Shown in pieces: positions 61,068 through 62,735 of a DNA stretch of 62,735 nucleotides (position 1 is the stretch's first letter; the number at the start of each line of letters is the position of its first letter). Below the pieces are notes generated by a model. The model searched no databases. It saw only the letters and a list, made by a program, of their open reading frames with translations, and was not told where the DNA came from. The stretch is from Ktedonobacteria bacterium (GTDB lineage Bacteria > Chloroflexota > Ktedonobacteria > Ktedonobacterales > JACDGC01), in the NCBI GenBank assembly GCA_027459705.1, contig DAIDHM010000110.1, positions 1 through 62,735 on the forward strand, read 5' to 3'. A program made the position numbers and the translations under genes.

Positions 61068-61523
61068 CTAAAGTGTGGTGTCTAGCGCGATCTCGTTGCG
61101 AATCGCCACCGCCCAGGCGCGGACGCGCCCTGCAGCTCCCTGTGGTTGATTGGGCAGATACACATCGGCGATGGTCATGTGCCAGTGGCGTTGACGTATC
61201 TGTCGTTCAGACTCCGGCCGCCTGACTCTTTTGGAGCCTTCATTGGCCCTCGCGGTACGCCGACGAATCCAGGTCAACGATATATTCTTCTCGAGCCGCT
61301 CCATGAATGCAGTACGTAACCCGGCGATTGCCTCATCGGTGAATTGCGCCGGATGTTGCAGATTATAGGCCGCAACCGTGAGAAAATGTTCAGCTTGGAG
61401 TTCCGGATCATTGTATTCCCAGGCAATGATCATCCCCAACTGTTCCCAGCAAGACATTCCCTCGACCACCTTCGCCCCGCATTCGGGGCACACGCGCTCA
61501 GGGAGGATATTTGACGGTTCCAT
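61068..61523 (-). CDS. DUF5946 family protein
   Basis: A 151-residue protein with an N-terminal CPECGA pair followed by CWEQLGMIIAWEYNDPELQA and EHFLTVAAYNLQHPAQFTDE. These match DUF5946, a family of unknown function with a CxxC and a conserved HxLTVxxYxLQHP stretch. The C-terminus is basic. ATG 61523 follows GAGAGG; a longer frame to 61583 is unsupported. It lies downstream of the TIR-like gene on the same strand. Confidence 0.75.
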   Translation of the reverse strand: MEPSNILPERVCPECGAKVVEGMSCWEQLGMIIAWEYNDPELQAEHFLTVAAYNLQHPAQFTDEAIAGLRTAFMERLEKNISLTWIRRRTARANEGSKRVRRPESERQIRQRHWHMTIADVYLPNQPQGAAGRVRAWAVAIRNEIALDTTL

Positions 61524-61698
61524 TGTGCCTCTCAAGACATTTGAACGTGAAGGTTTCGATCCGTATTTGTGGTCGTTTTCCACCGTGGGCTTGTTTGGGA
61601 CGAGATTGCCTGCATGCGGCAGAGCAATCTCTGCGTGTACACATGCAGTGCGGTCTCATGCGCAACAGAACTGCCGCACATCGCCTGGATACTCCGCC

Positions 61699-62735
61699 TC
61701 ATCTGGGTGGTGTGCCCATGCTTGCTTGCTGCGTCGAATATTGCCCAGATTGTTGATGAGACATGGCAAAGGTTTTCCATCCAGCGACCGCCTGAGCAAT
61801 CGCTGGATCTGCCGCCAGGCCAAAGTACGTTAGGGCGATATCCTGATGCTTGCCATTGACGAAGTTCAGTCGCAATTGCGGTACGCCAAACATCGATTCA
61901 TGTCGTTCCAGTGAGCGAAACATCTCGAATCCATAGCTGCCATCGAGAAAATCCATACGACGTCGATTACGCACCACATGAAAAGCCAACCCTTGCGGTG
62001 TGACGACAATGCATTCCGGCACTGCTTGATCATGGAGGAGGCGGTTAGCAGTACGGTTGCCGCGCACATAGATCACGGTTCGACGGATGAACGGGAACGT
62101 GAAGAGGCCAAAGAGCAGTATACCGGCACCAGATGTTCCCGCGACGTTTTCCCAATCCGTGAAGGTGGTGGGGTGGTAAAGTTTAACAACAAATACGATG
62201 AAAGAGCATGCCAGGATCACGATCATAGCCAAGGCGCTCCAGTAGAACCGCCCGATCACTACCCGAGAACGATAGAGAATCAGCATATTACTGTCTGGAC
62301 GAAATATCTGCCAGGCTTGTGGCAGATGCTCGTGGACGCCGCGTGCCAGTGCCAGTGTGCCATCGAAGGTATTCCCTGGCATGACAAGCGGGATACCCGC
62401 GCGATCCAGCGTGTCGCAGAGATCAATGAAACTACGCGCGAGCTCGACTTCAGGCGAAAAATCGACCCACTGCACCATGGCGAGATCTGGTGGCAAAGCT
62501 GTCGCAGCGTGACGGCGGATGGGAATGATGAGCTTGCCCTGGCGCCGCAGATCGACGAGGATGGCCAAGCAAGCGGTTGAGCGCATGAGGGACGGAGTGA
62601 TGAAGACCAATACGAAACGGCTCGCGGCCGCGCCGCGCGCCGTCGGCATGATACACTCCCGGTCACGCGCCATCTCCCCAGGTACGATCATGCGTTGCCC
62701 CAGCCAATCCTGTATACGCCGCATCAGCGCTTGCT
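61699..62735 (-). CDS. TIR-like domain membrane protein (partial at the window edge)
   Basis: The frame is open through the right edge and its 5' end is outside the window. The first 130 visible residues resemble the second half of a TIR/SEFIR domain: a regulatory loop, then ASRFVLVFITPSLMRSTACL and QGKLIIPIRR. Two transmembrane helices follow (FYWSALAMIVILACSFIVFV, then ILLFGLFTFPFI). A PH-like cytoplasmic domain follows, with TPQGLAFHVVRNRRRMDFLD and then ERHESMFGVP. TIR domains in bacteria can be NADases of antiphage systems or signalling scaffolds. The catalytic glutamate could not be checked because the N-terminus is missing. Confidence 0.6.
   Translation of the reverse strand, partial: QALMRRIQDWLGQRMIVPGEMARDRECIMPTARGAAASRFVLVFITPSLMRSTACLAILVDLRRQGKLIIPIRRHAATALPPDLAMVQWVDFSPEVELARSFIDLCDTLDRAGIPLVMPGNTFDGTLALARGVHEHLPQAWQIFRPDSNMLILYRSRVVIGRFYWSALAMIVILACSFIVFVVKLYHPTTFTDWENVAGTSGAGILLFGLFTFPFIRRTVIYVRGNRTANRLLHDQAVPECIVVTPQGLAFHVVRNRRRMDFLDGSYGFEMFRSLERHESMFGVPQLRLNFVNGKHQDIALTYFGLAADPAIAQAVAGWKTFAMSHQQSGQYSTQQASMGTPPR

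Follow-up and report, generated by a model that had tools for sequence, protein, structure and literature searches.

The window analysed here is the whole of a 62,735-nucleotide contig (G000:C70) from Ktedonobacteria bacterium, which belongs to a draft assembly of 245 contigs and 4.6 Mb. Two genes on the reverse strand occupy its right-hand end, and their features are listed in Table 1. The outer frame is open at the contig end, entering at position 62733 and stopping at 61699. Its product combines a stretch resembling a TIR domain with two membrane segments and a domain of PH-like fold, which bears out the outline that an earlier sequence-only reading of this DNA had drawn. The second gene is read in the same direction and begins 175 bases beyond the end of the first, or 115 if its possible GTG start is taken. 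The same reading had placed a DUF5946 protein with a CxxC motif beside the TIR frame, and this was confirmed both by the Pfam match and by the presence of CPECG in the protein. A scan for promoters and terminators gave the same counts as in shuffled sequence.

Table 1. Features at the right-hand end of the window
Feature	Position	Strand	Details and basis
DUF5946 protein, 151 aa from ATG	61068..61523	-	Pfam E 4.9e-31; GTG start at 61583 possible
Putative second module (degenerate TIR, two membrane segments, PH-like domain) of a tandem TIR membrane protein	61699..62733	-	344 aa, 5'-open, stop codon included
Predicted PH-like domain	61756..62082	-	AF2 model and PDB matches; first residues overlap the end of the second membrane segment
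Second membrane segment (predicted)	62065..62121	-	Kyte-Doolittle scan, residues 205-223; weak peak of 1.62
First membrane segment (predicted)	62164..62265	-	Kyte-Doolittle scan, residues 157-190
Degenerate TIR-like domain	62383..62733	-	Fragment residues 1-117; first strand beyond the contig end
Codon for Ile-58 of the fragment, where TIR domains have the catalytic-type Glu	62560..62562	-	Module alignment

Domains of the open frame

The Pfam profile TIR_2 (PF13676) matched residues 32-93 of the window fragment at 23.8 bits (E 6.6e-5), below its cut-off of 28. The frame had been described earlier as a TIR half-domain at the edge; the stretch is TIR-like and the frame is open, but comparison with the orthologues described below shows that, far from being an ordinary TIR truncated at the contig end, it is a second, degenerate TIR lacking the Glu. 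Matches to ABC2, YqhR and similar membrane families were all sub-threshold and were set aside, and a match to the NCBIfam model of Thoeris ThcB4 (25 bits versus 220) was taken as a generic TIR match. In the hydropathy scan, residues 40-60 also exceeded the threshold, but they lie within the TIR core. The second membrane segment is stronger in the orthologues described below than in the window fragment.

The AF2 model of the C-terminal domain (109 residues, five alignment rows) showed a PH-like fold with a pLDDT of 72.1 and a pTM of 0.64. When this model was compared using VIA-align, the best row was the PH domain of TFIIH p62 (Z 8.7, 90 residues, rmsd 3.1), although by the tool's own note Z values near 8 are common. 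Z ranged from 8.7 to 6.9 across the 50 rows listed, most of which were PH, PTB or FERM domains. Foldseek found no match in the PDB at E<=0.001 (best 0.017), and its weak list consisted mainly of GRK2 (PH-containing), bacterial PH, FERM and PTB entries. We accept a PH-type fold as the predicted fold of this domain because the VIA-align rows agree with one another, not because of the Z value, and on this agreement and the AF2 model the earlier claim of a PH-like domain is sound.

Tandem modules in the orthologues and on a second contig

We searched 61 relatives and obtained matches in four, the own genome included. The other three were G002, which the kinship table places in the family of the window, G026, which it places in the order, and, weakly, G003. 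The G002 sequence showed 60% identity (frame of 776 aa, protein of 769 aa) and the G026 sequence 37% (frame of 742 aa, protein of 737 aa), the 60% referring to the window fragment aligned with the C-terminal half of the G002 protein. In both genomes, a single frame encodes, in order, a TIR domain, two membrane segments (2TM), a PH domain, a proline-rich linker, a TIR-like domain, a further 2TM unit and a further PH domain. When the two modules were compared as profiles, hhalign gave a probability of 96.1 (E 3.1e-9, 302 columns), which is a modest test with three rows per profile. Judged by its sequence, the window fragment is the second module of a tandem TIR-2TM-PH protein.

The G003 relative (L005:1078-2949) has the reverse order, with the degenerate module first and the canonical module second, and its degenerate module has Lys at the Glu place. 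In the tree, the C-terminal modules grouped together (100/100), as did the N-terminal modules (86/95). Both G003 modules had long branches and were unplaced, so that one duplication and several are not separable from the tree.

A search of the own genome with G002 module 1 returned a frame at C36:1347-2489(-) with 467 bits, the next best match having 59 bits. This frame (412 aa) matches module 1 at 61%, continues past the linker for about 30 residues that are unlike the orthologues and then ends at its own stop, and C70 lacks the first few residues of module 2. The equal similarity of the C36 and C70 frames to G002 leads us to take them for halves of one gene, separated either by a real split or by a strain or assembly artefact. 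Whether the gene is broken or decaying here, a rearrangement or insertion having cut the linker and left the two fragments, appears to us evenly balanced. Such a break would account for the unrelated residues that follow module 1 on C36; it would also fit the 59 bits of the next best match, which leave no second close copy of module 1 in this genome, and the sequence of C36 past the break, which is unique except for a 33-base match of 88%. However, neither frame has internal stops and both are equally similar to G002, so that any break would be recent, and in a draft of 245 contigs strain mixture or misassembly could explain equally well why a contig ends in this linker. The composition of C36 showed no clear shift around the break. 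The gene is probably split in this genome and may here give two polypeptides or a non-functional protein. Beyond the break, C36 also contains a 178-aa ORF (L020:29-565) that had no match in Pfam or PADLOC.

TIR_2 matched the whole G002 protein in two stretches (E 8.6e-26) and exceeded its cut-off in the full orthologues and in module 1 on C36 (91.3, 81.6 and 64.2 bits). Taken alone, module 2 of G002 cleared the cut-off of 28 with 31 bits, and module 2 of G026 had no Pfam match at E<=1. The PDB sequence search gave no match with the window fragment or with G002 module 1 alone, and a profile of four rows (G002, C36, G026 and G003) was needed. This canonical TIR profile matched 39 PDB sequences at E<=0.01; Cat1 led the list (E 3.2e-8), followed by the SPARTA TIR, TIR-1/SARM1, the Paracoccus TIR and AbTIR, and MyD88 was also among the sequences matched. 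In the alignments shown for the first five of these (5/5), the Glu of module 1 aligns with a Glu that we take to be catalytic. This residue is kept in all four aligned canonical TIRs, whereas Ile stands in its place in all three known C-terminal modules (window, G002 and G026). The catalytic-type Glu that the sequence-only reading had proposed to look for in the complete TIR is accordingly present in the first TIR of the orthologues and of C36, but the window's own module has Ile.

We also compared the identity of the two TIRs between genomes. Between G002 and the own genome, 96 of 131 residues (73%) were identical in TIR1 and 88 of 117 (75%) in TIR2, and between G002 and G026 the corresponding values were 63 of 130 (48%) and 61 of 126 (48%). 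The membrane segments and PH domains varied more than either TIR in this comparison. Measured as protein identity only, the degenerate TIR is conserved as well as the canonical one.

Gene neighbourhoods and distribution in the phylum

The neighbours identified in the window were RtcB, a DUF255/thioredoxin protein and a nitronate monooxygenase-like protein. The relatives in other genomes were accompanied by an R2K ATP-grasp protein and asparaginase-2 (G002), LysE (G026) and glutamine synthetase (G003). No neighbour among those seen recurred across genomes, and nothing in the neighbourhoods pointed to a trigger. When 10 neighbours were scanned using PADLOC, nine had no match and one, a methyltransferase-like ORF of G003, matched part of mad2. 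A ThsA-type effector gene was found neither among these nor among 10 neighbours scanned with Pfam, the flanks in the own genome stopping at contig ends. No SAVED or STING family appeared among the Pfam matches, which cover the neighbours in part, and no CARF domain appeared in the Pfam scans of the TIR proteins; the G003 protein matched CAP12 below threshold (13.6 versus 24.7 bits). The sequence-only reading had supposed that more genes of a defence set could lie beyond the edge. The C36 side proved to carry other ordinary ORFs besides an Amidohydro_2 protein and a ketopantoate reductase-like protein. We dropped the idea of a defence island, the identified genes on either side being mostly ordinary and differing between genomes.

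The DUF5946 domain was found in 15 of the 47 genomes of the order, this genome included. It is very improbable that its gene and the TIR gene constitute a functional operon. The common strand and the gap of 115-175 bases speak for one; however, no relative of the TIR or 2TM-PH parts lay within about 1.5 kb (less on one flank) of any of the 16 other DUF5946 loci, three of which were read by eye and the rest by profile scan. Moreover, G002 and G003 carry the TIR protein with no DUF5946 match, and in G026 DUF5946 lies on another contig. We therefore rejected DUF5946 as a TIR partner on linkage and judged it a chance neighbour. No mention of DUF5946 was found in the open-access papers searched. 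Of the two parts of the earlier interpretation, a TIR protein that sits in the membrane and bears a PH-like domain is supported, but the linkage counts just given do not support its membership of a defence set with DUF5946. The locus is best read not as a defence operon with DUF5946 but as an orphan tandem TIR membrane protein viewed from its dead half and probably split in this assembly.

A search of the phylum with G002 module 2 matched 6 of 400 genomes, with strong matches only in G000, G002 and G026, and two of the six look unrelated or alike in architecture only. Members of the tandem TIR family are thus uncommon, with matches in 4 of the 61 relatives and in these 6 of 400 genomes of the phylum. 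The match in G130 (E 3.4e-4) fell on a frame that by eye resembles a solute symporter and was taken as chance, and a match on G000:C140 fell on a frame with 4 stops. A search of viral contigs yielded no relative. A pattern scan of genome contigs yielded 28 matches, of which two were relatives (G002 and G026), in a collection from which records near the window's genome are possibly omitted.

The 2TM-PH profile (A7) matched 24 of 400 genomes at E<=0.1, strongly only in the four TIR genomes and then in G001 and G018. In the latter two, the matches were stand-alone proteins of 196 aa (G001:C254, E 1.5e-13) and 190 aa (G018:C23, E 4.2e-7), which resemble the tandem TIR protein in matching this profile but differ in having no TIR domain. 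This pattern suggests that the membrane-PH unit exists alone and was fused to TIR. These small stand-alone 2TM-PH membrane proteins, with frames at L076:157-747 and L077:1456-2028, are kin to the membrane portion of the tandem TIR protein. A match to YgfX/CptA (Cpta_toxin) in one of eight 2TM-PH members fell below the cut-off (E 4.8e-4) and is no more than a lead.

A comparable arrangement was seen in a family of the same phylum (L101-L111; genus g31, family f9), whose proteins consist of a canonical TIR, helices, a degenerate TIR and helices. They come from G063, G146, G307, G337, G376 and G391, with several paralogues in some genomes. The Glu was present in the first TIR of all 11 proteins read, and the degeneration of the second TIR was judged by eye from printed sequences. 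These proteins are similar to the tandem TIR protein in having an N-terminal TIR with Glu, membrane helices and a degenerate TIR. However, they show no detectable 2TM-PH kinship (only matches at E 0.058-0.07, in G337 and G063), and a different stretch, as judged by eye, has been lost from the degenerate TIR.

Possible function of the tandem TIR protein

We tentatively propose, with slightly less than an even chance of being right, that the intact protein is a four-helix inner-membrane protein of two TIR, two-helix hairpin and PH-like units, in which the NADase or signalling activity of TIR1 is gated by the pseudo-TIR2. The TIR and PH domains would face the cytoplasm, and TIR1 would cleave NAD+ (or make an ADPR-type signal) only when TIRs stack head to tail. 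At rest, TIR1 would be kept apart by its attachment to the membrane and by its pairing with the pseudo-TIR2, and a stress or phage signal sensed via the membrane or the PH domains would cause the protein to cluster and TIR strands to form. Since TIR2 would present a surface to its neighbour without contributing a catalytic Glu, it could set the threshold or cap the strand. This picture of a tethered TIR whose stacking is restrained or shaped by a dead partner in cis was drawn by analogy with two studies, which describe the TIR NADase site as a composite formed between two stacked TIRs (PMC12847820) and a membrane helix that restrains the TIR NADase of TirC (PMC13142454). The model of the full-length protein was too poor (pLDDT 41.8) for a contact between TIR1 and TIR2 to be read from it. 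In the open-access papers searched, which leave out most subscription journals, we saw no bacterial membrane TIR protein described that carries a degenerate TIR in cis together with PH-like domains.

Among known systems, the TIR NADases of the SARM1 and AbTIR type align with the TIR of module 1 over the core and have the Glu in common with it. The tandem protein differs from them in having no SAM or ARM domain and in carrying two membrane hairpins, two PH-like domains and a second TIR without Glu. Cat1 (CRISPR-associated TIR 1), which was originally reported from a Chloroflexota bacterium (PMC12162218), is the top PDB match of the module 1 TIR; however, Cat1 is soluble and filament-forming and has a CARF sensor, a domain that Pfam did not detect in the tandem TIR proteins. 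TirC of Dictyostelium is likewise a membrane-tethered TIR with a catalytic Glu, but it is eukaryotic and is described as having a single N-terminal helix, one TIR and no PH-like domain (PMC13142454).

It is unlikely, in our estimate, that the protein is a non-enzymatic membrane scaffold, in which both TIRs would act only as adaptors between proteins, with partners or lipids recruited by the PH-like domains. TIR adaptors such as MyD88 are without enzyme activity. The appearance of MyD88 among the PDB matches of the profile and the retention of the TIR2 sequence despite the loss of Glu are consistent with this alternative, but the Glu present in all four aligned canonical TIRs argues against it. 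TIR proteins are also common as antiphage effectors. A stand-alone abortive-infection effector, whose TIR would kill infected cells by NAD+ loss, is in line with the best PDB match of TIR1, since Cat1 is reported to be an NAD+-degrading CRISPR TIR (PMC12162218). It also agrees with the matches of PADLOC TIR models to module 1 (E 1.9e-14, TIR part only) and with the richness of the order in TIRs, TIR_2 matches having been found in 46 of its 47 genomes versus 4 of 14 control genomes. However, the PADLOC matches fall on the generic TIR part and no defence gene was identified alongside, beyond the one neighbour in ten that resembles part of mad2, and we consider this alternative distinctly unlikely.

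This genome alone has 25 TIR_2 matches, of which 21 exceed the Pfam cut-off; the scan of the whole order counted 24 in it. By eye, its TIR frames include a TIR with WD40-type repeats, a TIR with a formylglycine-enzyme-like end and a TIR with a VWA-like part. A role in phage defence stays plausible, given how many TIR domains the order contains. Our best guess is a membrane-tethered TIR NADase or signalling protein that is restrained or assisted by its own pseudo-TIR.

A broader hypothesis, which we regard as rather doubtful, is that, in a membrane-tethered TIR protein, a catalytically dead TIR in cis, constrained as much as the live one, takes part in TIR stacking and determines the threshold of activation, and that this design arose at least twice in the phylum (in this family and in g31). 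If this is true, the live-plus-dead TIR membrane design would be a general way to restrain bacterial TIR NADases. Such enzymes must stay off until needed, and a pair of live and dead TIRs would show how a pseudo-TIR restrains or templates the active site.
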